From a virus: a stretch of 45,982 bases of DNA. The position numbers were made by a program, and so were the translations under genes. The notes beneath the pieces were generated by a model. The model was not told the origin of the DNA and made no database searches. It saw nothing but the letters and a program-made list of their open reading frames with translations. The stretch lies in the IMG/VR virus record IMGVR_UViG_3300047157_000050, positions 1-45,982 of that record, one strand, 5' to 3'. This document shows positions 2,308-45,982 of this stretch, in pieces. Positions within the stretch are counted from its first letter, which is position 1. Each line of letters opens with the position of its first letter.

Positions 2308-2443
2308 GTACATTACAGTTAAAGAATTAGCAGCACCAACTGGCTTTGATTTAAAAATAGCTGCTGGTGAAACGCTAGACCTCAAGAGTCAAGGCACAGT
2401 TACTATGCCTACTGGCACTCTTATGGAGGTAGCGGGGCAATAA
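2304..2443 (+). pseudogene. Very short fibre-type gene with a frameshift
   Basis: ATG at 2304 overlaps the previous stop. The frame hits TAG within nine codons. One base over, it reads KELAAPTGFDLKIAAGETLD and on through a PTGTLMEV ending to a stop at 2441-2443, which overlaps the next start in TAATG. The intact product would be about 46 residues and made of the same glycine/threonine-rich beta motif as its neighbours. It is either a sequencing indel or a decaying fibre fragment. Confidence 0.45.
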
Positions 2444-3057: not shown

Positions 3058-3084
3058 TTAATTTAATTTTAACAGGAGCAAGAA

Positions 3085-3852
3085 ATGGCAAATGAGATGA
3101 GTACAATAAAATCAAGTGACGAACATCTAACACTAAACGCTGATGGTTCTTCTAAGGATATAAAGTTCCAAGCCAACGGAGTAGAGAAAGCGAGTATCAG
3201 TTCTGCTGGTGCGTTTACTTCTACTACGATTGATGCGACCAAGCTGACAGGAGCGTTACCAGCCATATCGGGTGCTGCTTTAACAGGAGTTGGAGTTGCT
3301 GGTATTACATCAACTGCTGATGCAACTGCTATAACAATTGATAGTAGTGAGAATGTAGGTATTGGAACTACAAGCCCTTCTTCTCCATTACATCTTTCAG
3401 CAGTTAAAAATGATGGATGGGTTGCACAATTATTAAATACAGGCACAGGTTCAGATGCCAATGGAGTATTAATTAAAGCTGGTGTTGATGATGCAGACCT
3501 TATTCTACGATTACAACAAGCAGATGGTGGTGCTATATTAGATATAAAACACGATGGCAGAGGCTTGTCACAGTTTACTGCAAAGGCTTGGGCAAGATTT
3601 GAGAACAGTACATTACACGATTCACATAATTGCAGTAGTGTAAGTCAAAGCGGTAATACAGGTTATTATGATATTGCTTTTACAAATGCTATGACTAATG
3701 CAAACTACGCTGTAGCAGGTATGGCTCACGCAGACAGAATGTTGTCTTATCATTCAGCTCCTTCTACACAAAATCTTTATTTGTGGAGTTACAATTCAGC
3801 TGGTACTGCTGAAAATGGTAACTATCAATCAGTTATAGTTTTTGGAGATTAA
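3085..3852 (+). CDS. Tail fibre D, left copy (intact)
   Basis: 255 residues. The shaft contains TKLTGALPAISGAALTGVG and the widespread fibre element SENVGIGTTSPSSPLHLS. The C-terminal head, about residues 115-255, is rich in beta strands. The gene follows an AACAGGAG ribosome site. The right-hand counterpart at 44459-45225 is nearly identical but carries several indels, so this copy gives the best reading of the protein. It is probably a receptor-binding or accessory fibre. The start region differs from the right copy (MANEMSTIKSS here, MSTIQSSS there), which marks the edge of the swapped cassette. Confidence 0.7.
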   Translation: MANEMSTIKSSDEHLTLNADGSSKDIKFQANGVEKASISSAGAFTSTTIDATKLTGALPAISGAALTGVGVAGITSTADATAITIDSSENVGIGTTSPSSPLHLSAVKNDGWVAQLLNTGTGSDANGVLIKAGVDDADLILRLQQADGGAILDIKHDGRGLSQFTAKAWARFENSTLHDSHNCSSVSQSGNTGYYDIAFTNAMTNANYAVAGMAHADRMLSYHSAPSTQNLYLWSYNSAGTAENGNYQSVIVFGD

Positions 3853-3853
3853 T

Positions 3854-4138
3854 ATGAAAATAATATTTCATCATACTGAATCAAACACTCTTGGAGAAAT
3901 GACTCCAGCACCTAAGTTTTTAGCAACACTTGATGGTACTGAAGAAGAAAAAATGATTCATCTTGCTAATAAAGATTTACCTACTGGAACTAAGTATGAA
4001 ATTGTTGCAGACGATTATCTTCCTTCAGATAGAACATTTAGAATTGCTTGGGAATATGTAGCTGGTTCTGACGAAAAGACTTCAGAAGATTTAAGTGCAG
4101 AGGACTTAGCTAAATACAATATGAAGGAGAATAGATAA
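3854..4138 (+). CDS. Fibre-associated small protein, left copy
   Basis: 94 residues, MKIIFHHTESNTLGEMTPAP. ATG 3854 is preferred to an upstream TTG at 3842 because GGAG at 3844-3847 sits six bases before it and the previous gene stops at 3852. The sequence is acidic, with the ending EDLSAEDLAKYNMKENR. It overlaps the next gene in TAATG. The position after a fibre gene suggests an assembly factor; I do not recognise a named domain. The right copy at 45227-45513 is frameshifted. Confidence 0.65.
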   Translation: MKIIFHHTESNTLGEMTPAPKFLATLDGTEEEKMIHLANKDLPTGTKYEIVADDYLPSDRTFRIAWEYVAGSDEKTSEDLSAEDLAKYNMKENR

Positions 4139-4368
4139 TGCCAATGCAAATTAACATAAATAAGGCAAAGGCTGCTACTAAAGACAGACTGAGAGTAGAC
4201 AGAAAACCTCTGTTAGAAGAACAAGACATTCTCTTTATGAAGGCACAAGAAGCTGGTACATCAACTTCAGCTATTGTGACAGAAAAGCAAAGGCTCAGAG
4301 ATATTACAAATCAAGTAGATAGTATGACTACTACTGATGAGTTAAAGGCAGCTAAAGTAGAAGCCTGA
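4138..4368 (+). CDS. Tail-fibre assembly chaperone-like protein, left copy
   Basis: 76 residues, helical and charged. It contains INKAKAATKDRLRVDRKPLL and an ending RDITNQVDSMTTTDELKAAK. This resembles small phage chaperone-type proteins that follow fibre genes and share the pattern of an early Lys/Arg-rich helix, a middle LRD, and a late TxDELKA. Translation is coupled to both neighbours (TAATG at its start, TGATG at its end). The role is inferred from position and the general family look. Confidence 0.6.
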   Translation: MPMQININKAKAATKDRLRVDRKPLLEEQDILFMKAQEAGTSTSAIVTEKQRLRDITNQVDSMTTTDELKAAKVEA

Positions 4369-4958
4369 TGTCTCAAAGGCTGCGTAACAATTTGTATGCT
4401 TTTGTAGTTGTGTTCGCTTTCTGGTGCATATCGTTCTCAGTAATGGCTGCTGACCCTATTGTTACAAACAGTACAAGTAATAGCACAGTTACTACAAGTA
4501 CAGATGCTAAGAGTACAATAAGGACAAACCCACCTAGTGCAATTAGTCCGAGCATTAACGCAAGTAATAGTGACTTATGTATGGTAGGAGTTAGTGGAGC
4601 AGTACAGACACAGATACTAGGTATCAGTACAGGACAGGCTTACTCAGATGAGAACTGTATGAGATTAAAGAATGCAAAGGTACTCTATGATATGGGTATG
4701 AAGGTAGCAGCAGTTGCTTTAATGTGCCAAACGAGGTCGGTGTATGACGCAATGAAATTTGCCGGGACTCCCTGCCCGATAAACTCGCCCACTACAGGTG
4801 AGGGGCTAATAGGACAAGAAGCTACAGCAGAATGGAGATTGAATCCTAAGAAGATTCCAAAGAAACAACAGACAGCAAATATGGATAGAGGAGTATTTCT
4901 TGAGAAATTGGTTAGCGGTATTATTGGCGTTATCTTGCTCGCTATCCTCGTGGTCTGA
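4368..4958 (+). CDS. Secreted protein with N-terminal signal and C-terminal membrane helix
   Basis: 196 residues. Residues 9-27 (LYAFVVVFAFWCISFSVMA) form a signal peptide or signal anchor ending at an AxA-like site. A Ser/Thr/Asn-rich stretch follows. The middle has four cysteines, including MCQTRSVYDAMKFAGTPCPI, and the last 17 residues (SGIIGVILLAILVV) are a membrane helix. It opens a cluster of four membrane or secreted proteins. Function is unknown; a periplasmic lysis or envelope role is possible. The last 59 bases overlap the next gene. A partial second copy starts at 45746. Confidence 0.6.
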   Translation: MSQRLRNNLYAFVVVFAFWCISFSVMAADPIVTNSTSNSTVTTSTDAKSTIRTNPPSAISPSINASNSDLCMVGVSGAVQTQILGISTGQAYSDENCMRLKNAKVLYDMGMKVAAVALMCQTRSVYDAMKFAGTPCPINSPTTGEGLIGQEATAEWRLNPKKIPKKQQTANMDRGVFLEKLVSGIIGVILLAILVV

Positions 4959-26277: not shown

Positions 26278-27901
26278 CCGACCCTCCCATATCTGGATTG
26301 ATTCCTTTCTCTAGCCTAGCTTTTTCTGGGTTAAAGTATGCCCATCCAGCTTCACCAGTCTGACCCGTTCTTCTTAACTTAGGTACCCTTATCCTTGTTG
26401 AGTTCTTTGTGTACTCATCCTCAGCCAGTTTATCCCTAGAAAATAATATATTTGTATGGCAGGCCTGTGGTATTGCTCCACTGCCTTTCACATCATACTC
26501 ACTAATCTTGTGAGGATGAGAGCCATCATCTGGCTTTCTTGTATGCGTACTAAGTATGACTGCACATTTAGTCTCTTTGCATAGCTTAATAAATCTGTCC
26601 ATAACCTCTTCGATATTCTCGTTGCTTAAGTTCTTGATTGCAGTATGCAATGGGTCCACCAATATAATACCACAGTTCAATCCCTTTACAAAGTATCTTA
26701 TCTTAGAAAACATTTCATCAATATCAATACTACCACCACCATCATTATGTAGTTGTATCTTTGAGCCGAAGCCAATATCTATAGCAGACTCCATAATGAC
26801 ATCCACATTTAAATCTGTTGGCTTGACCAGTTGTAAATTCTCTGCAGTATGTACACTAACAACCTTTCTAATTGTCTCATCTATATTATCCTCTACCATG
26901 AAACATCCAATCCTTTCATTGGTTTTTGTGGCAAAGTGATAAATTAATTCATTAAGTATAGTAGTCTTACCAATACTAGTATGTGCCACAATAGATACTA
27001 ACTCACCTTTAGCTATACCTCCACGCATCATCTCATTTAGATTGCCAAATGAATCTGGAAGTGGTACCAATTCTGTATTCTTATAATCCAGTAACGCCTC
27101 TCTCATCTCTTCGATAGTAGCTACACCACTGACTGTATATTCCTTAGCGTCATTCCACCACTCATCATAGAATGCTTTACTATCCCCATTGGCTAAGTAA
27201 TCACTTGCATCCTTATGTTTGGCTAATGTTAATACCTTGCATTTGTTTGGACCGAGTATAGGTGCCACCTGCTTAGCTGAATCTCTGCCTGCCTCATCAT
27301 CATCAAAGCATATGACCACAGTCTCAAAAGAATCTATCCACTCTAAATTATTTTTTATATTTGATACAGAATTAGCACCATTATTAATAGAGACAACAGG
27401 CCACCTGCTACCAAACATCTCATAGGCCGAGCAACAATCCAATTCACCCTCTACAATGGTGAGAAATTTTCCTCCTGCTTTAAATAAATTCTGACCAAAT
27501 AACATATTAGTATTACTAGTATCACCCCATCCTCGGAATGCTTTATTCTCTACGGTCCTAGTCTTAATACCTACCATATCACCTCTTTGATTGTGATAAG
27601 GATAGTGGTGTTTAATAATATCACCCTTGCTATTCTTCTCACACTTCACCTTATACTTCTCTAAGGTCTCGGCCCTTAGCTTTCTATCTGGAAGAGAATA
27701 GTAATCCCCTCTGTAGTGTTTCATCCAGCTAGAATCTTTTATTTGTATTGGTTTGTTAGTATGCGTTACATGACCATGTGTGCCACAAGCATAACAATGA
27801 GTTTGGCCATCATCATAGACAGCAAGGTTATCACCTTTTGTGTCTTTTCCCATCTTTGCACAGTCTGGGCACTGCTCCTTTCGGATTAATTTATTATCCA
27901 T
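26261..27901 (-). CDS. Bifunctional primase-helicase (T7 gp4-like)
   Basis: 546 residues. Zinc-binding primase domain: Cys11, Cys14, Cys36, Cys39 (CPDC, CYAC). TOPRIM core: IVEGELDCCSA (Glu near 151) and CFDDDEAGRD (199-207). Helicase: Walker A AHTSIGKTT (306-314), Walker B GIILVDPLH (411-419) and STHTRKPDDG. The C-terminus is acidic and ends in Phe (SDASDF), as T7 gp4 does to contact the polymerase. It starts after the SSB terminator and overlaps the polymerase start by 17 bases. Confidence 0.92.
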   Translation of the reverse strand: MDNKLIRKEQCPDCAKMGKDTKGDNLAVYDDGQTHCYACGTHGHVTHTNKPIQIKDSSWMKHYRGDYYSLPDRKLRAETLEKYKVKCEKNSKGDIIKHHYPYHNQRGDMVGIKTRTVENKAFRGWGDTSNTNMLFGQNLFKAGGKFLTIVEGELDCCSAYEMFGSRWPVVSINNGANSVSNIKNNLEWIDSFETVVICFDDDEAGRDSAKQVAPILGPNKCKVLTLAKHKDASDYLANGDSKAFYDEWWNDAKEYTVSGVATIEEMREALLDYKNTELVPLPDSFGNLNEMMRGGIAKGELVSIVAHTSIGKTTILNELIYHFATKTNERIGCFMVEDNIDETIRKVVSVHTAENLQLVKPTDLNVDVIMESAIDIGFGSKIQLHNDGGGSIDIDEMFSKIRYFVKGLNCGIILVDPLHTAIKNLSNENIEEVMDRFIKLCKETKCAVILSTHTRKPDDGSHPHKISEYDVKGSGAIPQACHTNILFSRDKLAEDEYTKNSTRIRVPKLRRTGQTGEAGWAYFNPEKARLEKGINPDMGGSDASDF

Positions 27902-27925
27902 TTTGCTCCCTTACTTTAAATTAAA

Positions 27926-27948
27926 AGGGCTACCATGATAGTAGCCCT
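27926..27948 (-). terminator. Rho-independent terminator after the SSB gene
   Basis: On the minus strand AGGGCTAC and GTAGCCCT form an 8-base-pair stem with a seven-base loop, followed by TTTTAATTT. It lies 16 bases beyond the SSB stop and just before the primase-helicase gene. It probably limits readthrough, so SSB would be made in excess over the replisome enzymes. Confidence 0.75.
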
Positions 27949-27963
27949 AGACTTTATGACCAG

Positions 27964-28350
27964 TTAGAACTCGCTTTGGTCATACTCCTCCACACCCTCA
28001 GCCTTTTCATCCACTCGGATTCTCTCTAGGTATGTGTAAGCATCATAAGGTGCTTTACCTTTCTTGACTAGCATTGTAACCTTATCCCCAAATAAAGATA
28101 CATGAGAGGCATCAACTTCCTCCTTTTCAGCATTATAAACCTTAGGCTGGCCAAAGTCTATCTTACGCTTAGAAGTAATCTGTGTCTTACCCTCATAGTC
28201 ATTAGTCTTAAGACCGTTCTTCTCTGCTAGTTTCTTACCATCCTTATCTAAGGCAATTGTAAGTGTGTACTTACTCGTACCCATAAAGACATCCGGTGTA
28301 GTTAATTTATTGAAAACAACTTCACCCGTTAGTGGTAACATCTCACTCAT
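27964..28350 (-). CDS. Single-stranded DNA-binding protein (T7 gp2.5-like)
   Basis: 128 residues from ATG 28350, chosen over an ATG 33 bases upstream because AAAGGAG lies seven bases before it. The OB-fold-like core (LTGEVVFNKLTTPDVFMGTS, YTLTIALDKDGKKLAE) is followed by KTQITSKRKIDFGQPKV and an acidic tail ending in Phe (EEYDQSEF), the hallmark by which gp2.5 contacts polymerase and helicase. It has its own leader and terminator, so it is likely expressed as a strong single-gene unit. Confidence 0.82.
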   Translation of the reverse strand: MSEMLPLTGEVVFNKLTTPDVFMGTSKYTLTIALDKDGKKLAEKNGLKTNDYEGKTQITSKRKIDFGQPKVYNAEKEEVDASHVSLFGDKVTMLVKKGKAPYDAYTYLERIRVDEKAEGVEEYDQSEF

Positions 28351-28471
28351 ATTTAACTCCTTTATAGTTAACATTCTGCCCAAAGGCTGGGCTACCTAGT
28401 AGTTAATACTACTAAAAGTGCATTAAGAAAAATGGAAGTAAAAACTTAACGCACTCTTAGTAATACTAAGA

Positions 28472-28535
28472 ATCTATGTATGAATTACTAGTAGTATATA
28501 TATACTTAACAACTTCATAGTAACCATACATAGAT
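28472..28535. repeat. Long inverted repeat (hairpin or cruciform)
   Basis: ATCTATGTATG at 28472-28482 pairs perfectly with CATACATAGAT at 28525-28535. Inside it, TTACTA at 28485-28490 pairs with TAGTAA at 28518-28523. The loop contains the palindrome AGTATATATATACT. Confidence 0.75.
28486..28506. repeat. Palindromic 21-base motif, copy 1
   Basis: TACTAGTAGTATATATATACT contains the perfect 14-base palindrome AGTATATATATACT (28493-28506). Copy 2 at 33413-33433 differs at one base. Both lie in intergenic control regions. Confidence 0.7.
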
Positions 28536-28565
28536 ATATTGTACCAACTATTTTATGTTATGCAA

Positions 28566-28772
28566 TTAAAATTGTGGGTCATGTTCTTGTCCTTTGTCAA
28601 AAAGTTCTTGGTAGTAATCTGCCCTAGCTTTGTAGAAGTTATAATCTTTTATATTTTCTTCAAAGTCTGCATCATATTGTAGATTTCTGTACTTCTTAAG
28701 CATTACTGCTACATCTACCAGCTCATGTTCCACTTCCCAATTTCTTCCAGTCATACTATTGATATCAGTCAT
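28566..28772 (-). CDS. Small early protein of unknown function
   Basis: 68 residues, acidic and helical (VAVMLKKYRNLQYDADFEEN, FYKARADYYQELFDKGQEHD). The last gene of a tightly overlapping run of eleven small genes; its start overlaps the previous stop by eight bases. No recognisable domain. Confidence 0.6.
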   Translation of the reverse strand: MTDINSMTGRNWEVEHELVDVAVMLKKYRNLQYDADFEENIKDYNFYKARADYYQELFDKGQEHDPQF

Positions 28773-28938
28773 TCTTATCCAGCCATTCTTTCATATCTTT
28801 CTCAAACTCTGGCGTAGTCATTACATGGTGGGCGTATGCCATAGCATTATTCCAACTATCCTCAAAGTCTGTGCCAAAGGCCAGTTCATCCTTATTTTCA
28901 TAGGTGTAAGGTACACCATTTATATCTCTCTTAATCAT
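28765..28938 (-). CDS. Small early protein of unknown function
   Basis: 57 residues, MIKRDINGVPYTYENKDELA, then DFEDSWNNAMAYAHHVMTTP and ending EWLDKND. GAGGAGTAGAGATA precedes the start. It overlaps both neighbours by eight bases. Acidic, with no known motif. Confidence 0.6.
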   Translation of the reverse strand: MIKRDINGVPYTYENKDELAFGTDFEDSWNNAMAYAHHVMTTPEFEKDMKEWLDKND

Positions 28939-29137
28939 TATCTCTACTCCTCACTTTTATTATCATATCTTGTAGTTTTTGAGATTGTTTATCGTCTTCC
29001 CACTGGGTATTTATATTTAATAGGAAGTCTTCAAACTCATCTACAATCTCGCTTAAAGCGTCATTTTCTTTTTTTAAGGTCCTGTTAATCCTTAGGGCCT
29101 CATCATTGAAATGTTTATTATTATTTGGATTTGGCAT
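28931..29137 (-). CDS. Small early protein, helical
   Basis: 68 residues, MPNPNNNKHFNDEALRINRT followed by a heptad-like helix (LKKENDALSEIVDEFEDFLL). Possibly a small coiled-coil dimer. Unknown function; member of the compact early gene run. Confidence 0.55.
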   Translation of the reverse strand: MPNPNNNKHFNDEALRINRTLKKENDALSEIVDEFEDFLLNINTQWEDDKQSQKLQDMIIKVRSRDND

Positions 29138-29291
29138 AATCCTCCTTTATTTTCTTAAGTGTTTCTTCTGGTATAGACTCTTGTCCCATTAACATTTGTA
29201 ATGTTATACCATATTCCATGAAAAACTCAATATCTGAGCCATCATAAACATTCATTCCTATTTCTCTAAGTGTTTGCATTGCATCCATCAT
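29121..29291 (-). CDS. Small early protein of unknown function
   Basis: 56 residues, MMDAMQTLREIGMNVYDGSD and SIPEETLKKIKEDYAKSK. The start overlaps the previous stop in ATGA, and the end lies 17 bases into the next gene. Methionine-rich and helical. Confidence 0.55.
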   Translation of the reverse strand: MMDAMQTLREIGMNVYDGSDIEFFMEYGITLQMLMGQESIPEETLKKIKEDYAKSK

Positions 29292-29509
29292 TTTCCTCCA
29301 TTCAATCGTTTATCCATCAAATCCCACTCAACATCCTCTCGACTGGGCTGACCTGTTGACAGGGCCTTATCAACTGTCTCTTTTAAATCAACTTCAAGGA
29401 CCCTAAGTTGTTCTATTTTATCAGTTATTTCTTTATGCAGGGCTTTCTTTACTTTATTTTTTCTTATAATATCCTGCTCAAGTTTACCTAACCATCCAAA
29501 TCCATTCAT
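29288..29509 (-). CDS. Small early coiled-coil protein
   Basis: 73 residues, MNGFGWLGKLEQDIIRKNKV then a helix KALHKEITDKIEQLRVLEVD. Charged and helical throughout. Overlaps both neighbours by four bases. Unknown function. Confidence 0.55.
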   Translation of the reverse strand: MNGFGWLGKLEQDIIRKNKVKKALHKEITDKIEQLRVLEVDLKETVDKALSTGQPSREDVEWDLMDKRLNGGK

Positions 29510-29907
29510 TTTTCTACCTCCATATTTAGTATATTATTATTTTTACGCCACTCTTGACGCATTTTTTCACGATAGGCTAGCAAAGACCTAACATCCTTTT
29601 TAGTCATCACAAGCCCATTTCTATCATGTGGAGGGCCAGCAAGAGTGTGTAACATGCCATCCATCCAACTAGCTTTCAATTGTATCCCTGCAACAACCTC
29701 ATCTGGCTCATTTTCCCATTCCTTTGTTGAAGTCTGCAGTTGCCTACCTCCATGCCCCATCTCGGCCCATATGTAATCTGGTTGGGCAGAACGCTGGAGC
29801 CTGCTATAAGCACCTACATAGCTAAGCCCAGTTGCCTCCATAATTCTAGCAATAGTAACAATAGACCTATCAGCTAAAACATATTCCTTATGTAAATTCT
29901 TAGGCAT
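29506..29907 (-). CDS. Early protein with possible helix-turn-helix
   Basis: 133 residues from ATG 29907 (MPKNLHKEYVLADRSIVTIA); a longer reading from 29922 adds five residues. RSIVTIARIMEATGLSYVGA resembles a helix-turn-helix, so DNA binding is possible. The rest includes WAEMGHGGRQLQ and a basic C-terminal helix. A regulatory role is inference. Confidence 0.5.
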   Translation of the reverse strand: MPKNLHKEYVLADRSIVTIARIMEATGLSYVGAYSRLQRSAQPDYIWAEMGHGGRQLQTSTKEWENEPDEVVAGIQLKASWMDGMLHTLAGPPHDRNGLVMTKKDVRSLLAYREKMRQEWRKNNNILNMEVEK

Positions 29908-30088
29908 TATTATCCTCAACATGTTTAGTTACAAGTTTAACTGCTGGTGAGATAACTTCTACACTTTCCCAGCCTACGGTGTATCCATATTTCATTGCAT
30001 ACTCTCTAGCATCCATTTCATCATAGAATCGACCCATTTTACTACCAAAACCATCAGTAGCAAACCACATAATATTTTCTTTAATCAT
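29900..30088 (-). CDS. Small early protein of unknown function
   Basis: 62 residues, MIKENIMWFATDGFGSKMGR then FYDEMDAREYAMKYGYTVGW. Aromatic-rich alpha/beta pattern. Overlaps both neighbours by eight bases. No known domain. Confidence 0.55.
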   Translation of the reverse strand: MIKENIMWFATDGFGSKMGRFYDEMDAREYAMKYGYTVGWESVEVISPAVKLVTKHVEDNNA

Positions 30089-30422
30089 TTTTTACCTCCT
30101 TACCATTTGAAATTAGTGTCACACCATCCTTTGTATGGAAATCAATTTTACCCCCATATCCATAATGAATGTGCTCATCATGTAACTTAAGTTCCCAATT
30201 ATGATTGGCAAGAGACTCTATCAAGTCTTTTATTTGGTCAATCCTCTCTTGGGTACCATTAATATCACGCCAGTTAGACATCCCACTTAATTGTGCGTTG
30301 TCAATCCACCTTTTAGCATATTCTTTTCTGGTAAGTTGAATATCCTTACCGGTCCAGTTCTCAAAAGTTTGTGTTGTTATATTATCTATAGTTTTCATTG
30401 TGTCTTTTGCAAATTTACTCAT
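30081..30422 (-). CDS. Early protein of unknown function
   Basis: 113 residues, MSKFAKDTMKTIDNITTQTF, with a helical middle (TQERIDQIKDLIESLANHNW) and a beta-rich end (GYGGKIDFHTKDGVTLISNG). Start overlaps the previous stop. No recognised motif. Confidence 0.55.
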   Translation of the reverse strand: MSKFAKDTMKTIDNITTQTFENWTGKDIQLTRKEYAKRWIDNAQLSGMSNWRDINGTQERIDQIKDLIESLANHNWELKLHDEHIHYGYGGKIDFHTKDGVTLISNGKEVKND

Positions 30423-30630
30423 TATCTAACCTCCTTAATAAAATATTATTTTCTATATCACTTGTATTCACATGCCCAATTTCTTTCAGTTTAACTAATA
30501 TTTGTCTCATAGTCTCATCTGATTGAGAGGGTACACAATATAATTTATATACTAAATCAATCACTGGTCTGTATTTAGCATAGACCCTTTCTTCTGCATT
30601 TTCAATTGCTTTTGTTATAGTATCATTCAT
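30415..30630 (-). CDS. Small early helical protein
   Basis: 71 residues from ATG 30630, which overlaps the previous gene by eight bases and has GAGGA upstream; a longer reading from 30675 is less likely. MNDTITKAIENAEERVYAKY, then helical to the end. Unknown function. Confidence 0.55.
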   Translation of the reverse strand: MNDTITKAIENAEERVYAKYRPVIDLVYKLYCVPSQSDETMRQILVKLKEIGHVNTSDIENNILLRRLDNE

Positions 30631-30787
30631 CGGAGTCATCCTCCTCAATTTGTACAATTTCAGCCCACTCACCACAATGTGAGCAAAGCCCTATCCCATC
30701 TGTATTGGGAGTATATACTGGGGAATCACAGCAATTGCTCCATCCCTCTATTACTAAGTTTTCTGTAAACATTTTTCTAAACGACAT
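30623..30787 (-). CDS. Tiny zinc-ribbon-like protein
   Basis: 54 residues, MSFRKMFTENLVIEGWSNCC then GLCSHCGEWAEIVQIEEDD. NCC and CSHC are spaced like a single zinc ribbon. A strong GGAGGT site precedes ATG 30787. Small zinc ribbons in early phage modules often bind host proteins or nucleic acid; the function here is unknown. It opens the run of eleven overlapping small genes. Confidence 0.65.
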   Translation of the reverse strand: MSFRKMFTENLVIEGWSNCCDSPVYTPNTDGIGLCSHCGEWAEIVQIEEDDSDE

Positions 30788-30962
30788 TTTTACCTCCTTG
30801 GTATTATTATTTAATTTCTGGTAAGAATTTTAGCATGAATCTATAAATCTTGTCAACCCCTAAAATGGAAATAAATTGAAAATAAATGGGAAATCCTGGC
30901 CCAGCTTGGATAACTGGGCTCGAAATCTTCGATTCTAGGGACTTTTATTGGTTGGGTAATAC
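30788..30962. other. Intergenic region with two short hairpins
   Basis: GCCCAG/CTGGGC at 30899-30919 and TCGAA/TTCGA at 30920-30932 lie next to each other downstream of the glycosylase-like gene on the minus strand. No U-run follows closely, so termination is uncertain. The rest of the 175 bases is AT-rich and shows no gene. Confidence 0.45.
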
Positions 30963-31577
30963 CTAGGCCTTGGGTAAAATGGCCTCTATGTGATAATTAC
31001 TAACCTGCTGGCCTGTAGTCAATTTCTTATTGGCTATGTTTCCTGCTACATAATGGCACCAACTATCCCACCAGTAAGCGGTCCCTTTTTGTTGGGTCTG
31101 GGATACATAGGCTCTAATCTTTCGCATTTTGGACTCATGCTTTAAGGTTTTAGGTAATGATACTTGCGATTGTTTCCAGCCTAGGCGTTTGAGGTTATGA
31201 CTATCAATACAGGAAACATCAAAACCTAGTAGCTGTAATACAAATGCAGATTTAACCATTCCAAGGTTTGGCGTATCGTAAACATAAAGCAGGGCTTTTG
31301 AGATGTTTTCTACATCATCAAGGCCTTGGCTTACATATTGAGTTAATCTCTCAAATATGGCCTGTTTATGAGCCTCTACATACTCAAAGCCTGCACGCTT
31401 TAAGCCATAATTTAAATGCCTACATTCTGGGCCCTGCTGGTCTACCTCAAACATTTTATCTGCTAGGCCTTGAGTTGGTTGCTGGATTGATAGCAATACA
31501 AAAGTAAAACCCCTTACCATATTGTCTGGGCTGGCCAGCAAAAAATCTGCGATTATTTTATTGTCTTTTTTATACAT
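30963..31577 (-). CDS. HhH-GPD DNA glycosylase-like protein
   Basis: 204 residues. Residues 101-134 (DTPNLGMVKSAFVLQLLGFD, then VSCIDSHNLKRLGW) match the helix-hairpin-helix and downstream D-x-H-x-x-R-L-G part of the HhH-GPD superfamily, with Asp125 in the catalytic-Asp position. The N-terminus lacks a clear iron-sulphur motif. Early expression suggests removal of modified bases or action on host DNA. The fold call is by motif; substrate unknown. Confidence 0.6.
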   Translation of the reverse strand: MYKKDNKIIADFLLASPDNMVRGFTFVLLSIQQPTQGLADKMFEVDQQGPECRHLNYGLKRAGFEYVEAHKQAIFERLTQYVSQGLDDVENISKALLYVYDTPNLGMVKSAFVLQLLGFDVSCIDSHNLKRLGWKQSQVSLPKTLKHESKMRKIRAYVSQTQQKGTAYWWDSWCHYVAGNIANKKLTTGQQVSNYHIEAILPKA

Positions 31578-31602
31578 ATTTTATCCTGTAGTTTTGTTAC
31601 CT

Positions 31603-31625
31603 AAAAAGCCCCAATTAAGGGGCTT
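31603..31625 (-). terminator. Early-operon terminator 1
   Basis: On the minus strand AAGCCCC-TTAATT-GGGGCTT followed by TTTTT read from the stem end: a canonical rho-independent terminator between the genes at 31645-32205 and 30963-31577. The stem and flanking TTAGGTA are identical to terminator 2 at 32265-32287. Confidence 0.8.
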
Positions 31626-31644
31626 AGTAGGGCTGGCCTAGGGC

Positions 31645-32205
31645 CTAGTAAATATTACCGCTCCTTTGTAGGTATTCCTCCTCTCTTTGCTCAATTCTTC
31701 CATGATTTCTATGCCTCAAAAGAGAGTCCCAATTATCCATTGCCTTTTCATGGGTTTTTCTATTGTAGGCGGTAGCTGTTGAGAATGTCATAAGCTCCCC
31801 AGTTTCTGTATCAGCAGAACCTAAAAGCTCCAGCACATCTGCAAGGGTCTTGGCTTTGTAAGGGTAAGAATACATATGCCCAGTATAAAGGAATTCCCAG
31901 CATTCACCATTTGGAGCGTCAATATAGCCGAATTCGGTTTCCATTTCGCAGGTCTCATGCTCATCATTAAAGCCTAATTCACCAATGACCCAATACTCAT
32001 CAAATTTCATGATTCCGTAGGCCCAGCCCTCATTAGTTTTGTAGTAGTATGTTGTGGGCTTGTGCCAGCTACCAGTCCTATAATCAACCTTGACTAGAAC
32101 CTCGCTTGGTCCCTCGCCATTTTCAATTATCTTTTCTTCATAATACTTTCCAGCAAAGATTACTTGATTCCAACCGCCTATATTTTTAAGTGTTATATTT
32201 TCCAT
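31645..32205 (-). CDS. Early protein of unknown function
   Basis: 186 residues, rich in aromatic and acidic residues (KVDYRTGSWHKPTTYYYKTN, EGWAYGIMKFDEYWVIGELG). It looks like a beta-rich globular domain with a charged helical C-terminus (HRNHGRIEQREEEYLQRSGN). It lies between two near-identical terminators. AAGGATA precedes the start. No known family recognised; a host-takeover role is possible. Confidence 0.6.
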   Translation of the reverse strand: MENITLKNIGGWNQVIFAGKYYEEKIIENGEGPSEVLVKVDYRTGSWHKPTTYYYKTNEGWAYGIMKFDEYWVIGELGFNDEHETCEMETEFGYIDAPNGECWEFLYTGHMYSYPYKAKTLADVLELLGSADTETGELMTFSTATAYNRKTHEKAMDNWDSLLRHRNHGRIEQREEEYLQRSGNIY

Positions 32206-32310
32206 TTTATATCCTTATATGTCGCTTGGCTCTTGAGGGGGCCAAACTTGCCCTTTTGGTACCTAAAAAGCCCCTTGGTAGGGGCTTGGTAGGATAAGCA
32301 GGTTTAAGGC
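32206..32310. other. Short intergenic region with hairpins
   Basis: Holds early terminator 2 and, between it and the next start, a second inverted repeat TTGGC (32226-32230) / GCCAA (32241-32245). No gene seen. Confidence 0.5.
32265..32287 (-). terminator. Early-operon terminator 2
   Basis: On the minus strand AAGCCCC-TACCAA-GGGGCTT with TTTTT following. The stem is the same as terminator 1; only the loop differs. It lies downstream of the gene at 32311-32703. Confidence 0.8.
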
Positions 32311-32703
32311 TTAATTTGGGTATAGGTTACGCTCCCAGCTATGCTCACCGTATAGTATGCCATCAGCTAGGTCATCTAGTATTTCACTAATACTATCATC
32401 AGTAAAGCCACCACATGACATCTCATCATATTCATCATGCTCTTCTTGCTCAACTATATTGAATGATAGTTTGGGCCTGTAGTCCTCGGTCATATACACA
32501 TTTACAAGGCATGTAAGTTTATCTCTAACTGGCATATTCCTCTCGTTTGACCTAAGGGCTATATAAGCCACTTTAAATGGCTTGGCAGGCTTGGTATCCA
32601 TTAACTTATTTAATACCGTAGGTTGTAATAAATGGTCATGTGTATGGTCCTCAAATGACATCATATCTAATGTTACTATTGTATCGTTTATCATTGTTTT
32701 CAT
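32311..32703 (-). CDS. Acidic early protein of unknown function
   Basis: 130 residues, strongly acidic with EQEEHDEYDEMSCGGFTDDS and a late SEILDDLADGILYGEHSW. Acidic small early proteins of phages sometimes mimic DNA or bind host enzymes; that is speculation here. Preceded by AAGGAAATAAA. Second gene of the early block. Confidence 0.6.
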   Translation of the reverse strand: MKTMINDTIVTLDMMSFEDHTHDHLLQPTVLNKLMDTKPAKPFKVAYIALRSNERNMPVRDKLTCLVNVYMTEDYRPKLSFNIVEQEEHDEYDEMSCGGFTDDSISEILDDLADGILYGEHSWERNLYPN

Positions 32704-32720
32704 TTTATTTCCTTATGTTA

Positions 32721-32954
32721 TTAATCTAAATATCCGAATGCATTCTGGACCCATTCTTTACGGTCAATCTTGAACTGGGCTTTAATTTCTGCTAATGCTT
32801 TGGCCTCATTGCCATCAACTATAAGTGCGGAATAGTTCTGCTCTTCATAGTGTTTGGCCTCATTGAACTTAGCGTATGGTATCAGTCTTAGATTGTCACC
32901 ATCATTATTCTCAATGCTTATATACTCTAGGTATTGTCTTGTATCTGTCTTCAT
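32721..32954 (-). CDS. First early protein, unknown function
   Basis: 77 residues, MKTDTRQYLEYISIENNDGD, then NYSALIVDGNEAKALAEIKA and WVQNAFGYLD. AAGGAGG precedes the start at suitable distance. It is the first gene after the minus-strand promoter at 32999-33027, so it is probably expressed first on infection. No known domain. Confidence 0.6.
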   Translation of the reverse strand: MKTDTRQYLEYISIENNDGDNLRLIPYAKFNEAKHYEEQNYSALIVDGNEAKALAEIKAQFKIDRKEWVQNAFGYLD

Positions 32955-32998
32955 TTTGTGTGCCTCCTTGGCAAGTGCTGGTCAATTCCAGTACCCGT

Positions 32999-33027
32999 AG
33001 TATGACAGCATAAATTTGATATGTCAA
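32999..33027 (-). promoter_or_regulatory. Sigma-70-type early promoter
   Basis: On the minus strand TTGACA (33027-33022), a 17-base spacer and CATACT (33004-32999). The -35 box is perfect and the -10 matches four of six. It faces the early operon, with its first start codon 45 bases further on. Recognition by host polymerase would explain the absence of a phage RNA polymerase. Confidence 0.7.
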
Positions 33028-33375
33028 CAACTTTGGATAATAAAACTTTGAGAGGCTGGGATATTATGTCAAGGAATATAAGAAAACCATGAATCCATCC
33101 CAACTAGAAAAACTATCCATCCCATCCCAGCTACTGGCACAGATTTCCATCCTATCTGGTCCAGACTACGCCATCCATCCCAGAGAGTCCATCCTATCCC
33201 ATAATCCATGTATATGCGTGGGCGGAAAGCATGGAAAGTGCGAGGGGTACCCACCCTTCTGAGAAAATTTCTCCATCGGGCAAAGGGACCTCCATGTAAA
33301 ATTCTTATTTTTTCAATGTAGTACCTTGCATAACCAACTATTTTCGGCACTATGCAGAATTACTTAGTTATTATC
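33028..33375. other. Non-coding region with CCATCC repeats between divergent promoters
   Basis: About 350 bases with no convincing gene. Seven CCATCC units start at 33095, 33117, 33122, 33147, 33171, 33175 and 33189, giving a pyrimidine-rich plus strand and GGATGG-rich minus strand. A GC-richer stretch follows near 33216-33290. It lies upstream of the small terminase and outside both predicted transcripts, so a packaging recognition site or physical genome end is a good candidate. Confidence 0.5.
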
Positions 33376-33387
33376 TGGTATAATAAT
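33376..33387 (+). promoter_or_regulatory. Extended -10 promoter 1 for the structural operon
   Basis: TGGTATAATAAT contains TGnTATAAT, an extended -10 box with a perfect TATAAT (33379-33384). No good -35 is visible. The same 12-mer recurs at 33491-33502. Confidence 0.6.
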
Positions 33388-33412
33388 ACCTAGAATGAGC
33401 CCTAAAGAATAA

Positions 33413-33433
33413 TACTAATAGTATATATATACT
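33413..33433. repeat. Palindromic 21-base motif, copy 2
   Basis: TACTAATAGTATATATATACT, one base different from 28486-28506, with the perfect palindrome AGTATATATATACT at 33420-33433. It lies between the two extended -10 promoters of the structural operon, where a bound protein could block or activate transcription. Confidence 0.7.
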
Positions 33434-33490
33434 GGTAAGAGAAAACTTTGTAAGAATTCTAGGAATGAAGGGATAACTAATTTAAATTTA

Positions 33491-33502
33491 TGGTATAATA
33501 AT
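33491..33502 (+). promoter_or_regulatory. Extended -10 promoter 2, very close to the terminase start
   Basis: TGGTATAATAAT again, with TATAAT at 33494-33499. The expected transcription start is at about 33506-33508, on the ATG of the small terminase at 33508. No Shine-Dalgarno precedes that ATG, so a leaderless transcript is suggested. Confidence 0.6.
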
Positions 33503-33507
33503 AGTAT

Positions 33508-34095
33508 ATGGCAAATAAAGGTGAAATCTCTATAGACTCAGAAGACGAGATAAGAGAAATAGAGAAAGAATTAGAGGAAGAGTTGAGATATGCAGTAGCA
33601 TCTGCAAAGGGTGTAGTCCCAGCTGATGCTGTAATTAAGATTGAGCGTAAGAAAGGTAGACCAACTGGTGGACTTAGTGCAGAATCTAAGAAAGCTGGTG
33701 GTAAAAAGTCTAGAATTAAGCGTGGACAAACTTATAAACCTACAGATGATGACTATTCTAAGGTAGAAGAGATGGTTACTATAGGATTAGACCAGCATAC
33801 TATTTCTAAGGTTATGGGTATTAGTAATGCTACTCTAACTAAATATTATTCTCATAATTTACTAGTAGGTAAAGAGAAGCGTACCGCAAGAGTTGCCGGT
33901 GTTGCTTACGAGATGGCGGTCAGTGGGGAATCTCCTAGCATGACTACCTTTTGGTTAAAGACACAGGCCGGATGGTCTCCGAAACACCATGTTGTTGTAG
34001 AAGATAGACAGTTTGATATACAGTGGGCCAACGATGAGGCTGATATTGCAGACGCTAACCAAATGTTAAGGAATAAAGATAGTAAGGTACACTAA
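33508..34095 (+). CDS. terS: Terminase small subunit
   Basis: 195 residues. A charged N-terminus and a basic linker (KIERKKGRPTGGLSAESKKA, GGKKSRIKRGQ) precede a helix-turn-helix (LDQHTISKVMGISNATLTKY). A C-terminal part with TTFWLKTQAGWSPKHHVVV is typical of small terminases of this kind. It binds the packaging site and hands DNA to the large subunit. The start lacks a ribosome site. It lies next to the repeat-rich non-coding region, which may hold that site. Confidence 0.78.
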   Translation: MANKGEISIDSEDEIREIEKELEEELRYAVASAKGVVPADAVIKIERKKGRPTGGLSAESKKAGGKKSRIKRGQTYKPTDDDYSKVEEMVTIGLDQHTISKVMGISNATLTKYYSHNLLVGKEKRTARVAGVAYEMAVSGESPSMTTFWLKTQAGWSPKHHVVVEDRQFDIQWANDEADIADANQMLRNKDSKVH

Positions 34096-41224: not shown

Positions 41225-41241
41225 CACAACAGGAGTATACA

Positions 41242-41733
41242 ATGACATTAGATAATGTAAACATAGGGCTGGCTAACTTTTGGAAAGTTACTTGTCTTGA
41301 TAAAGATGGCAACATCAAATGGGAAGAGAATAAAAAGAACCTAATTACTACAGTAGGGTTAAACCATATTCTAGATACACAATTTCACGCAAGTACACAA
41401 GTTACTACTTGGTACATAGGACTAAAAGGAGCTGGTACTCCAGTAGCAGCAGACACGATGGCATCACACTCAAGCTGGGCAGAACTTGCTGGCTATGCTG
41501 GTAACAGAAAAGAATGGACAGAAGGTGCAGCATCAAGTGGTAGTATGACTAACAGTTCTAGCGTAGACTTTACAATTAACGCAACAGCAACAGTAGCTGG
41601 TGCTTTTCTAAACACAGCAGCAACAGGAACAGCAGGTACACTATACGGTGTAGTTGACTTTAGTTCTTCAAGAGCAGTAATCTCTGGTGACACACTACAG
41701 GTAACGGTAACAGTAACAGCTGCTTCAGCATAA
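41242..41733 (+). CDS. Conserved tail protein A, right copy (intact)
   Basis: 163 residues, MTLDNVNIGLANFWKVTCLD, with HASTQVTTWYIGLKGAGTPV and a beta-rich end (GVVDFSSSRAVISGDTLQVT). It is the complete version of the gene broken at 15-507. Shows about ten base changes beyond the indel, so the two copies are not one sequence read twice. ACAGGAGTATACA precedes the start. A short beta-rich virion protein; role unknown. Confidence 0.7.
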   Translation: MTLDNVNIGLANFWKVTCLDKDGNIKWEENKKNLITTVGLNHILDTQFHASTQVTTWYIGLKGAGTPVAADTMASHSSWAELAGYAGNRKEWTEGAASSGSMTNSSSVDFTINATATVAGAFLNTAATGTAGTLYGVVDFSSSRAVISGDTLQVTVTVTAASA

Positions 41734-41744
41734 AGGAGTAGAGA

Positions 41745-42299
41745 ATGGCTTTAGAGGATTTAACAGGTACTAAGTACATAGATGACCTCGTATCGACTAA
41801 CCCAGCAGCGGGCGATAATGTCTCTGAGGGTGATGACCATATACGAGGAATCAAGAATGTACTAAAAACTACATTCCCTAATATTGATGGTGCGGTTACA
41901 CCAACAGATACTGAGATTAATTATGTAGGTGGTGTTACCTCTGCTATTCAAACTCAGATAAATACTAAGGCAGCAACTACTGCGGTAGTAACTAAGACAT
42001 CAGCCACAGGGTCAGGTGCTTTGCCAGCAGGTACAACAGGTCAGCGAGATGGCTCACCTTCTGCTGGTTTCATTAGGTTTAACACAACAGATACCAGTGC
42101 TGAGATTTATGATGGTTCAGCTTGGACTCCAGTAGGCGGTGGTAACACTACAGACAAAGGTCTATACGAACACGCACACACCATAGCAGCTAACTATAGC
42201 ATAACAAGTGGCAACAACGCTATGACTGCTGGGCCTATTACAATTAACTCAGGGGTATCAGTCACAGTACCTACTGGTTCAACTTGGGTGATAGCATAA
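41745..42299 (+). CDS. Tail-fibre-type structural protein B, right copy
   Basis: 184 residues, nearly identical to 519-1073. Differences include AVTPTDTEINYVGG here against AITATDTELNYVDG there. Because several substitutions cluster, the copies come from related but distinct genomes, or have diverged. It has the same attachment-type N-terminus (YIDDLVSTNPAAGDNVSEGD) and beta-rich C-terminus. The stop overlaps the next start in TAATG. Confidence 0.75.
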   Translation: MALEDLTGTKYIDDLVSTNPAAGDNVSEGDDHIRGIKNVLKTTFPNIDGAVTPTDTEINYVGGVTSAIQTQINTKAATTAVVTKTSATGSGALPAGTTGQRDGSPSAGFIRFNTTDTSAEIYDGSAWTPVGGGNTTDKGLYEHAHTIAANYSITSGNNAMTAGPITINSGVSVTVPTGSTWVIA

Positions 42300-43073
42300 T
42301 GAGCAAAAGTTAAAATACAAGGTAACGCTTCAGGAACAGGGGTACTAACTGTAACTGCTCCGAATACGAGTACAGACAGAACGATAACATTACCTGACAC
42401 AACAGGTACTTTGTTAGATGAGAACTCTAGCGTACCAGCAGCTAACTTAACAGGCACAGTTGCAGATGCTAGGATTTCAGCTCTAACAGCTTCTAAATTA
42501 ACTGGAGCTTTACCAGCGATTAGTGGTGCTAGTTTAACAGCTATTCCAGCAGCAAATCTTACAGGTTCTTTGCCTGCGGGTATGGGTGGAAAAATATTGA
42601 GTTATGCTGGTGGACAAATTCAAATGACTAGTAATATAGCTCATTCAGGTTCTTGCACAAAAACAGCTACTGGAGTTACTTTTTCTATAACTTCAACCGT
42701 AACAAATTCAAATTTTATAATTGACGCTTCAGGATGGACTCCACACATTAATACTGCTCCTTCAGGAGGTAATACTGGTGCTGGTCATTGGTTATATAGA
42801 AAAGTAAATAGTGGGAGTTATTCTAGTGCTACTACTCATCCTGTATATAGCCGTTATATAAATGGTAACGCAGCTTACAATTGGGATGAAGATACAGGTC
42901 ATTGCCACGTTTATGATAGTGCTTTAACACATACTGCTGGAGATACAATAACCTATCAATTTTATGTTGAAGCATATAATTGTGGTGATACGGGATATTT
43001 TAATCACTTAGGTGGTGGCAGCTCAGGCACTGAGTCCCTAACACTGAATTGGACAATTTTAGAAGTTAACTAG
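42299..43073 (+). CDS. Tail fibre C, right allele, alternative head
   Basis: Start ATG 42299 (MSK), but an extra A in a homopolymer near 42305-42308 shifts the frame; from 42309 it reads VKIQGNASGTGVLTVTAPNT to the stop at 43073, about 257 residues in all. The shaft with LTASKLTGALPAISGASLTA equals the left allele. From about 42570 the head is different: MGGKILSYAGGQIQMTSNIA, then a beta-rich domain with HWLYRKVNSGSYSSATTH and an ending SLTLNWTILEVN, a common marine fibre head. Likely receptor-binding. Confidence 0.7.
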
Positions 43074-43082
43074 GACATACTT

Positions 43083-43379
43083 ATGATTACAACAATAGAT
43101 GCAATAAAATCATTAGCACCCAACGCATTATGGACTTTACCATTTGATAAAGTATTAATATGGAAGTCCGATGATATTGTACAACCTACTCAAGCAGAAA
43201 TAGATGCTGAAGTAATTAGACTTCAAGCAGTCTACGACTCACAAGAATACGCAAGAAAACGCAAAGTTAAATACGATGAGTTAAATCAATTTGAATTAAT
43301 CAGCGATGATTCTATTAATGGCACGACTACACACAAGGATGCCATAGTAGCGATTAAAGCTGAGTTTCCAAAACCATAG
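43083..43379 (+). CDS. Fibre chaperone-like protein
   Basis: 98 residues, MITTIDAIKSLAPNALWTLP, then QAEIDAEVIRLQAVYDSQEY, ARKRKVKYDELNQFEL and an ending AIVAIKAEFPKP. It shares EIDAEVIRLQA and the YARKRK region with 44165-44455, so these are paralogues, each directly downstream of a fibre gene. Fits a dedicated fibre assembly chaperone, as in other phages; inference from arrangement. Intact, unlike its counterpart at 1811-2062. Confidence 0.6.
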   Translation: MITTIDAIKSLAPNALWTLPFDKVLIWKSDDIVQPTQAEIDAEVIRLQAVYDSQEYARKRKVKYDELNQFELISDDSINGTTTHKDAIVAIKAEFPKP

Positions 43380-43388
43380 GAGTAACGA

Positions 43389-44168
43389 ATGGCAATAGTA
43401 ATTAATGGTTCAGGCACAGTAACAGGACTATCTGTTGGTGGATTGCCTGATGGAACAGTCGATGCTGGAACACTAGCAAGTAATGCAGTTACAGAAGCTA
43501 AGATAGCATCAAGTGCTGTAGTAACTGCAAAACTAAACGATGATGCTGTGACAAATGCTAAGATGGCTAACGATGCTATTACAGAACACGAGTTAGCTGG
43601 AAGTGCTGTAGTAACCGCAGCTATAAACGATGATGCAATTACAGCAGCTAAACTAGCTAGTGGAGTTGGCGGTAAAATATTACAAGTAGTTACAGGAGAA
43701 CTAACATCTCACGTTCAAATGGCAACTACATCTTGGCAAAATACAGGATTAACAGCAAATATTACACCATCTGCTACATCAAGTAAGATTCTTATAACAG
43801 TTTCTTTTGGTAAAGCACAAACAACTCAATCTAATGGAGACCATACTTATTCAATGAGATTATTAAGACAGGTAGGTGGCACAAATTATGACTCTGATTT
43901 AAATGGTGTTGCAGATGGTAGTAGGTCAAGAGCGTTGTTTTCACAAGGCGGACATTCATATAACGCAAGTCACTCTATGGGCGGTTTTAGTATAACAGGA
44001 GTGGATTCTCCTAACACAACTTCAGAAATTACATACTATGCACAAGCTTGGCCACAGTCTGGAAGTTATCCACTTATTCTTAATGGTGTAAGTAATAATA
44101 CTAATGATGCTAATACTTATCACTCAAGGACAAAAGCAATTCTAACAATGATGGAGATAGCGGGATGA
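43389..44168 (+). CDS. Tail fibre with repeat shaft
   Basis: 259 residues. The N-terminal half carries tandem 13-14-residue units of the type NAVTEAKIASSAVVTAKL, DDAVTNAKMANDAITEHEL, typical of trimeric fibre shafts. From about residue 95 (GGKILQVVTGELTSHVQMAT) a common marine fibre head begins and ends TKAILTMMEIAG. Absent from the left cassette, where 2053-3057 occupies the slot. Overlaps the next gene in ATGA. Confidence 0.7.
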   Translation: MAIVINGSGTVTGLSVGGLPDGTVDAGTLASNAVTEAKIASSAVVTAKLNDDAVTNAKMANDAITEHELAGSAVVTAAINDDAITAAKLASGVGGKILQVVTGELTSHVQMATTSWQNTGLTANITPSATSSKILITVSFGKAQTTQSNGDHTYSMRLLRQVGGTNYDSDLNGVADGSRSRALFSQGGHSYNASHSMGGFSITGVDSPNTTSEITYYAQAWPQSGSYPLILNGVSNNTNDANTYHSRTKAILTMMEIAG

Positions 44169-44455
44169 TAATAGGAAAAGGTGAAGCCATACTATCTTTA
44201 AAGCCAAACGCTGAATGGATAATTCGTGGAGATACATTGGAATGGATAGATACTGAACAAACAGAACCAACTACATCAGAAATAGATGCTGAAGTAATTA
44301 GACTTCAAGCAGCCTACGATGCTAAAGCCTACGCTAGAAATAGAGCAGCAGAATACCCATCAATAGCAGACCAACTAGATGACATATACCACAACGGTAT
44401 TGATGCTTGGAAAGCTACTATTAAGACAACCAAAGACAAATATCCGAAGGAGTAA
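44165..44455 (+). CDS. Fibre chaperone-like protein, paralogue
   Basis: 96 residues, MIIGKGEAILSLKPNAEWII, EIDAEVIRLQAAYDAKAYAR and an end IDAWKATIKTTKDKYPKE. Its middle is shared with 43083-43379. Start overlaps the fibre stop. It pairs with the fibre at 43389-44168. Role inferred from the repeated fibre-plus-small-gene arrangement. Confidence 0.6.
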   Translation: MIIGKGEAILSLKPNAEWIIRGDTLEWIDTEQTEPTTSEIDAEVIRLQAAYDAKAYARNRAAEYPSIADQLDDIYHNGIDAWKATIKTTKDKYPKE

Positions 44456-44458
44456 CGA

Positions 44459-45225
44459 ATGTCAACAATTCAAAGCTCAAGTGACAGAACACCTTAACAC
44501 TAAACGCTGATGGTTCTTCTAAGGATATAAAGTTCCAAGCCAACGGAGTAGAGAAAGCGAGTATCAGTTCTAGCTGGTGCGTTTACTTCTACTACGATTG
44601 ATGCGACCAAATTGACAGGAGCGTTACCAGCCATATCGGGTGCTGCTTTAACAGGAGTTGGAGTCGCTGGTATTACATCAACTGCTGATGCAACTGCTAT
44701 AACAATTGATAGCTAGTGAGAATGTAGGTATTGGAACTACAAGCCCTTCTTCTCCATTACATCTTTCAGCAGTTAAAAATGATGGATGGGTTGCACAATT
44801 ATTAAATACAGGCACAGGTTCAGATGCCAATGGAGTATTAATTAAAGCTGGTGTTGATGATGCAGACCTTATTCTACGATTACAACAAGCAGATGGTGGT
44901 GCTATATTAGATATAAAACACGATGGCAGAGGCTTGTCACAGTTTACTGCAAAGGCTTGGGCAAGATTTGAGAACAGTACATTACACGATTCACATAATT
45001 GCAGTAGTGTAAGTCAAAGCGGTAATACAGGTTACTATGCTATAACTTTTACAAATGCTATGGCTAATGCAAACTATGCTGTAGCAGGTATGGCTCACGC
45101 AGATAGAATGCTATCTTATCATTCACAACCCACTGCTTCACAAAAGCTTTATATGTGGAGCTATAATTCAGCTGGCAATGCTGAAAATGGTGATTATCAA
45201 TCAGTTAGTAGTTTTTGGAGATTAA
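44459..45225 (+). pseudogene. Tail fibre D, right copy, several frameshifts
   Basis: Counterpart of the intact fibre at 3085-3852. ATG 44459 (MSTIQSSSD after correction) follows AAGGAGTAACGA. Indels near 44490, 44572, 44714 and 45208 break the frame; the longest open part is 44706-45230. The correct stop by comparison is TAA 45223-45225. Two short differences in the head (for example QPTASQKLYMW against APSTQNLYLW) are real substitutions, while the indels look like sequencing errors. Confidence 0.6.
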
Positions 45226-45226
45226 T

Positions 45227-45513
45227 ATGAAAATAATATTTCATCACGCTGAATCAAACACTCTTGGAGAAATGAGTCCAGCTCCTCAGTTTTTAGCAAC
45301 ACTTGACTGGTACTGAAGAAGAAAAAATGATTCATCTTGCTAATAAAGATTTACCTACTGGAACTAAGTATGAAATTGTTGCTGACGATTATTTACCTTC
45401 AGACAGAACATTCAGAATTGCTTGGGAATATGTAGCTGGTTCTGACGAAAAGACTTCAGCAGATTTAAGTGCTGAAGATTTAGCTAAATACAATATGAAG
45501 GAGAATCTGATAA
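45227..45513 (+). pseudogene. Fibre-associated small protein, right copy, frameshifted
   Basis: Counterpart of 3854-4138. ATG 45227 reads MKIIFHHAESNTLGEMSPAP, then an extra C near 45306 shifts the frame; the rest is open from 45303. A further extra base near 45508 destroys the stop, which by comparison is 45511-45513. Confidence 0.55.
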
Positions 45514-45746
45514 TGCCAATGCAAATTAACATAGATAAAGCAAAGGCTGCTACTAAAGACAGACTTAGAGCATGAGAGAAAACCTGTGTTAGAGGCACAA
45601 GACATTCTTTTTATGAAGGCACAGGAAGCTGGCTCAGATCAACTTCAGCTATTGTGACAGAGAAGCAAAGGCTCAGAGATATTACAAAGCAAGTAGATAG
45701 TATGACTACGACTGATGAATTAAAGGCAGCTAAAGTAGAAGCCTAA
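45513..45746 (+). pseudogene. Fibre assembly chaperone-like protein, right copy, frameshifted
   Basis: Counterpart of 4138-4368, starting MPMQINIDKAKAATKDRLRA. Indels near 45574 and 45635 break it. The correct end overlaps the next start in TAATG at 45744-45748. Confidence 0.5.
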
Positions 45747-45982
45747 TGTCTGACAGACTGCGTAACAATTTGTAATAGCTGGGTTTGTAGTTGTGTTCGC
45801 TTTCTGGATAGCATATTGTTCTCAGTTAATGGCTGCTGACCCTATCGTAACAAACAGTACAAGCAATAGCACAGTTACTACAAGTACAGATGCTAAGAGT
45901 ACAATAAGGACAAACCCACCTAGTGCAATTAGTCCGAGCATTAACGCAAGTAATAGTGACTTATGTATGGTAGGAGTTAGTG
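45746..45982 (+). pseudogene. Signal-peptide protein, right copy, partial and frameshifted
   Basis: Counterpart of the first 77 residues of 4368-4958, cut by the window end. The signal-peptide region near 45773-45825 carries several indels, then the Ser/Thr/Asn-rich part matches almost base for base. Confidence 0.5.

Follow-up and report, generated by a model that had tools for sequence, protein, structure and literature searches.

Matched control sites in two operons are an arrangement of an already known kind. In phage lambda, the leader RNA elements nutL and nutR (boxB), like the put elements of HK022, lie behind the promoters of two oppositely directed operons, and among lambdoid phages boxB changes from phage to phage along with N. 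The lambda operators OL and OR form a matched pair of partly palindromic sites, located at divergent control regions, and their specificity also changes between phages. In RNAI/RNAII of ColE1 and CopA/CopT of R1, hairpins with complementary loops form kissing loops. For gene 32 (Ssb) of phages T4 and RB69, a published study (PMC535899) describes an autogenous translational operator with an RNA target in the translation start region, and RNA targets that diverge between these related phages.

The locus described here resembles gene 32 in having a predicted structured leader ahead of a gene for a phage ssDNA-binding protein (SSB), a likeness of anatomy alone; it differs in that the protein is of the gp2.5/Enc34 type, that two large hairpins stand behind the gene's own promoter, and that a second leader, that of the terminase, has the same tip. 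With lambda nut and HK022 put it shares paired leader elements at oppositely directed operons, whereas here no shared stem sequence was seen, the shared part has a mixed orientation, no N-like protein was found and one of the sites belongs to the late operon. Unlike OL and OR, the sites fall within hairpins that are predicted to be transcribed, and the search for a co-varying repressor gene found none. The loops are complementary in some lineages, as in ColE1 and R1, but they are encoded 5 kb apart and do not overlap, and in other lineages they are identical. As far as we could find, two unrelated leader hairpins with tips that co-evolve in either orientation have not been described in the literature, and the two leaders offer undescribed candidate structured RNAs in an uncultured marine phage group.

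The window phage and its 21-base repeat

The window, that is, the whole stretch of DNA analysed (45,982 nt, IMGVR_UViG_3300047157_000050), comes from an uncultured marine phage whose TerL is 52-54% identical to that of HTVC010P-type pelagiphages. Its genes include a DnaB-type primase/helicase, PolA and a B12-type ribonucleotide reductase, and no tRNA genes were found in it. The region matched none of 50,697 phage records at the DNA level, the SSB protein had no match in phage records, and the bacterial genomes searched for host assignment gave TerL relatives alone, at no more than 54% identity. The replication operon consists of SSB, primase and polymerase, and the late operon holds packaging genes behind the TerS leader. 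PHROG 112 was matched by 7 of 16 members of the SSB family; the predicted SSB structure (pLDDT 84.7) matched Enc34 SSB (E 1e-5) and T7 gp2.5 (E 4e-4). The genes and the two copies of the repeat are as follows.

27964..28350, minus strand: SSB gene (128 aa, gp2.5/Enc34-type ssDNA-binding protein), first gene of the replication operon
33508..34095, plus strand: TerS, small terminase subunit (PHROG 309, E 1.6e-9)
28486-28506, plus strand: motif copy 1, TACTAGTAGTATATATATACT, identical in six close relatives and the window
33413-33433, plus strand: motif copy 2, TACTAATAGTATATATATACT, in the apical part of the TerS leader hairpin

An earlier reading of this DNA, made from the sequence alone, had reported one 21-base motif at 28486 and 33413, with a perfectly palindromic 14-base core and both copies in non-coding control regions. 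These observations are correct. The copies are identical at 20 of 21 positions, AGTATATATATACT is a perfect 14-base palindrome, and both copies lie outside all plausible genes, the first between SSB (start 28350) and an ORF ending at 28566, and the second upstream of TerS (start 33508). The form TACTARTAGTATATATATACT has exactly two occurrences, one in the SSB leader and one ahead of TerS, with no degenerate forms elsewhere in the window. By itself the 14-mer is unremarkable, because 0.68 matches with two or fewer mismatches are expected by chance (no others were found in the window). In contrast, the 21-mer with up to three mismatches has two window matches against 0.01 expected, a number reached in 0 of 100 shuffles; the 21-mer pair, unlike the palindrome, could not occur by chance.

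When the window and its relatives were scanned, as the sequence-only reading had proposed, the motif was restricted to the two gaps and kept in close relatives. Among 2.9 million IMG/VR contigs the exact 21-mer occurs in eight, all of them relatives of the window phage, and every copy sits in the SSB gap or the TerS gap. The core of the motif is kept within the window clade: the TerS gap of the nearest relatives holds AGTATATATATACT (in L013, L050 and L059, AGTATATATTTACT), and the distance of this core to the TerS start barely varies (78-88 nt). A plain TA microsatellite was ruled out, since the flank TACTARTAG is kept and non-repetitive tips are common to both sites in other lineages.

Predicted structured leaders of SSB and TerS

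The sequences of relatives were aligned at both gaps, and further scans for relatives added few contigs. In pattern scans, every match that forms a leader is upstream of SSB or TerS; the remaining matches do not form a leader. The SSB leader has the following order from the promoter to the gene, and many relatives have TTGACA-like -35 boxes as well.

28538..28543, minus strand: putative -10 element TACAAT (GGTACAAT) of the SSB promoter, from sequence, with its position aligned in relatives
28474..28533, minus strand: H1, the first hairpin, whose apical part holds the motif (fold; stem covariation in relatives)
28404..28468, minus strand: long hairpin with a 24-25 bp stem and the pyrimidine loop UUUUUACUUCCAUUUUU (pairing, covariation, fold)
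28357..28362, minus strand: AAGGAG ribosome-binding site of SSB, from sequence, kept in relatives

The SSB leader of the window folds with a z of -6.35. In the long hairpin (22 sequences), 95.5% of cells are paired and 13 of 25 pairs have two-sided changes, with every slid control far below the true register; division into three small hairpins was ruled out by the fold and the pair counts, which give one stem. Read on the transcript strand, non-Watson-Crick pairs between good pairs are G.U in 11 contexts compared to 2 for A.C, which indicates that the long hairpin acts as RNA. It combines compensatory changes with G.U on the transcript strand, as expected of a conserved structured phage leader RNA, and the long hairpin and its pyrimidine loop are probably a separate element controlling the stability or translation of the SSB mRNA. 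The stem of H1 shows covariation of 0.293, compared to 0.162 after shuffling, in 14 relatives with equal arm lengths; the window is outside this count because its arm lengths differ. Unlike that of the long hairpin, the strand test of H1 (10 G.U versus 6 A.C contexts) does not decide the strand. The SSB promoter and H1 are absent from L143-L145, which retain the TerS hairpin, and thus H1 is dispensable in some phages.

Several relatives have further features in this gap. In L143:4392-4596, L144:4396-4600 and L145:3289-3493, an upstream reading frame appears to extend up to the long hairpin. In L122:8330-8534, the long hairpin is separated from the SSB start by ~150-190 bases that are absent from other leaders and have no Rfam match. 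In L107 (contig of L007) and L113 (contig of L031), a terminator-like hairpin and T run (GGTAGGCAGAAATGTCTACCTTTTTTT and GGGAGCAGAAATGCTCCTTTTTT) just upstream of the SSB promoter divides the early genes from the SSB operon.

The TerS leader contains the following elements.

33379..33384, plus strand: -10 TATAAT of the putative promoter P1, aligned in relatives
33389..33463, plus strand: hairpin CCTAGAA...TTCTAGG, whose apical part holds the motif (fold; covariation)
33494..33499, plus strand: TATAAT of the putative P2 just before the TerS ATG, conserved in relatives

GGTATAAT is the -10 ahead of the TerS leader, and GGTATAATA is found in the window at P1 and P2 only. Covariation in the TerS hairpin is 0.136, compared to 0.057 after shuffling (20 relatives), and 4 of 8 pairs of its inner helix have two-sided changes. 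The outer CCTAG/CTAGG is no test alone because it was used to find the hairpin, but the unselected alignment also contains it. The TerS leader of the window folds with a z of -2.56, and the hairpin folds better as the opposite strand; its strand test (2 G.U versus 0 A.C contexts) is not decisive.

No Rfam 15 covariance model reached the gathering threshold anywhere in the window, L122, L116, L097 or L160, and at E<=10 the interval 27900-33600 gave weak below-threshold scores only, none of them on either leader.

Tip pairs across lineages

The tips of the TerS and SSB (H1) hairpins were compared in 49 contigs, in which 32 lineages have both leaders comparable. The tips differ completely between lineages, while within a genome the similarity of the two tips far exceeds that of shuffled pairs. 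The summed local scores of own pairs were 773 in the same sense and 679 in antisense, each versus 501 for shuffled pairs (p<1e-4 each), in a test that treats lineages as exchangeable and in which AT-rich tips inflate some scores. The tips of L097, L112, L031, L110 and L019 are not low-complexity; those of L097 are common over 38 of 38 bases, and those of L112 over 35 of 38. About one third of the 32 lineages (L020, L048, L129 and others) have no convincing match. L031, with CA-rich tips, is close in most genes to L017/L007, with TTTATATAAA-type tips, and both tips differ. That both tips of a genome evolve together in most lineages points to a paired control element.

Most matched lineages favour one orientation. 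The same-sense match is preferred in L097, L031, L110, L007, L037 and L055, and the antisense match in the window type (L014), L015, L059, L121, L124, L127 and L019. The same RNA-sense element in both leaders, as in lambda-type nut/boxB, is thus not general here: it is seen in L097, L031 and L007, whereas antisense is better in L014, L015, L019, L059 and L121.

A search of the genomes and contigs examined for a third tip copy or a complementary phage RNA gave chance-level matches only, with two copies in each. As an exception, L097 and L112 carry part of the tip once more, in inverted orientation and immediately upstream of the SSB -10 (L097:5431-5445 and L112:4800-4812; CATCAGAAGTATGAT and CATCAGAAGTGTG), which makes an inverted repeat across the promoter. 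Extra tip copies in promoters were rejected as a general rule, being clear in L097 and L112 only.

Comparison of near-identical genomes with different tips, together with distance tests, gave no convincing phage protein that varies with the tip type; two families adjoining the leader correlate weakly with the tips in the distance tests, which linkage could explain. TerS and SSB were rejected as readers of the tip: both are 91-99% identical between L031 and L007/L037 despite the different tips, and tip specificity is therefore unlikely to belong to them. The sequence-only reading had suggested a pull-down with a helix-turn-helix candidate (gene at 29506-29922 here). No homologue of it was detected in L017, L031, L037, L055, L104, L110 or L111, most of which have matched tips, and the gene was dropped as a universal factor. 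Since genomes that are nearly identical in most genes carry different tips, a common factor, if there is one, is not among the obvious phage proteins; it may come from the host.

Proposed mechanism and alternatives

We judge it an even call that the co-evolving pair of tips coordinates the replication and late operons through common recognition, by a factor or by direct contact. At the sequence level, the proposal is based on the sigma-70-like -10 upstream, the covarying stem below each tip and the co-evolution of tips within genomes in most lineages. Transcripts would carry both leader hairpins, and both tips would serve one common recognition event, in which the recognizer would be a lineage-specific trans-acting factor or the two leaders in direct contact; through this shared recognition the replication and late operons would be regulated together. 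The sequence-only reading had proposed that the two copies may coordinate an early-late switch. A role in coordinating the two operons is reasonable because the repeat is real, confined to the control gaps and kept in close relatives, and because the two sites evolve together, although the larger hairpin around each copy had not been seen in that reading.

Recognition in the nascent RNA is the favoured form, because the shared segment tops a covarying stem at both places, and recognition as double-stranded DNA is nearly as likely, because both orientations occur. No single RNA mechanism covers all lineages since the orientation is mixed, a freedom that favours double-stranded DNA or, alternatively, a solution that differs from lineage to lineage. 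More tentatively, the pair may be a two-site switch in which the tips of unrelated leader RNAs must match each other or a common partner. If this is true, the tip sequence, and even its orientation, is free to change if both tips change together. A distant pair that changes together in either orientation calls for a mechanism linking replication and late expression, and the natural variants, including genomes without one hairpin, make the pattern testable.

Possible, though we doubt it, is an arrangement of double-stranded DNA operators, in which the two sites are bound by one lineage-specific dimer, either a repressor or an activator, and the hairpins are a separate matter. Such operators would account for same-sense and antisense copies alike, for the palindromic core in the window clade, and for the inverted partial copy upstream of the SSB -10 in L097 and L112, but they leave unexplained why the site always tops a covarying stem in both leaders. 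The matched stretches of ~38 bases in L097 and L112 are long for one operator, the extra promoter copies are not general, and a co-varying DNA-binding protein was not found, with the helix-turn-helix candidate undetected in several lineages. The suggestion that the palindrome is the site of a dimeric regulator may still hold, but not in the form of a simple conserved operator, which is ruled out because at these two positions other relatives (L097, L031) carry tips that are quite unlike it and often not palindromic. Across the lineages compared, the palindrome is a special case of one clade and not a general feature.

Direct contact between the leaders, with the loop of the TerS leader RNA pairing with that of the SSB leader RNA, is an unlikely form of common recognition; equally unlikely is its consequence, that late transcription shuts off or stabilises the message of the replication operon. 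The predicted T:S duplex energy is -16.1 kcal/mol within genomes, compared to -10.8 kcal/mol over all pairings (p<2e-4), and the predicted duplex is strong in L059, L121, L127, L014 (window type), L137 and L019. Thus, the complementary loops of antisense kissing-loop systems are found on average but not in all members, since the loops of L097, L031 and L110 are identical instead. In addition, the single difference between the window copies would put an A.C mismatch into the duplex, and self-complementary tips give rise to apparent complementarity.

We also hold it improbable that recombination or template switching maintains the likeness of the tips without a shared ligand. Such homogenisation without function would fit the patchy sharing, the free orientation, the varied lengths of the shared stretches and the lack of a partner gene among those searched. 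However, outside the shared stretch the two leaders have different flanking sequences, which leaves little substrate for ordinary gene conversion; beneath the tips, the TerS and H1 stems are maintained by compensatory change, and the core is kept in the window clade. That the tips mark replication start sites, another suggestion of the sequence-only reading, is very improbable: AT-rich palindromes adjoin the SSB gene and the cumulative GC skew turns near 33 kb, but the turn coincides with, and is explained by, the change in gene orientation there, nothing further was found in support, and the tips vary between relatives, unlike SSB, primase and polymerase, which are conserved in them.

Additional observations

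In nearly all relatives, as at window positions 33492-33510, only a few bases separate TATAAT from the TerS ATG and there is no Shine-Dalgarno sequence, and P2 is possibly the leaderless start of the late mRNA. Upstream of the late promoter, CCATCC / GGGATGG words are repeated at 33090-33260, a stretch that is possibly the leader of the leftward early operon. Window positions 1-4596 and 41228-45982 repeat each other with ~85-100% identity at an offset of ~41.2-41.4 kb, and the contig seems to overrun one genome unit, joining two strain variants.
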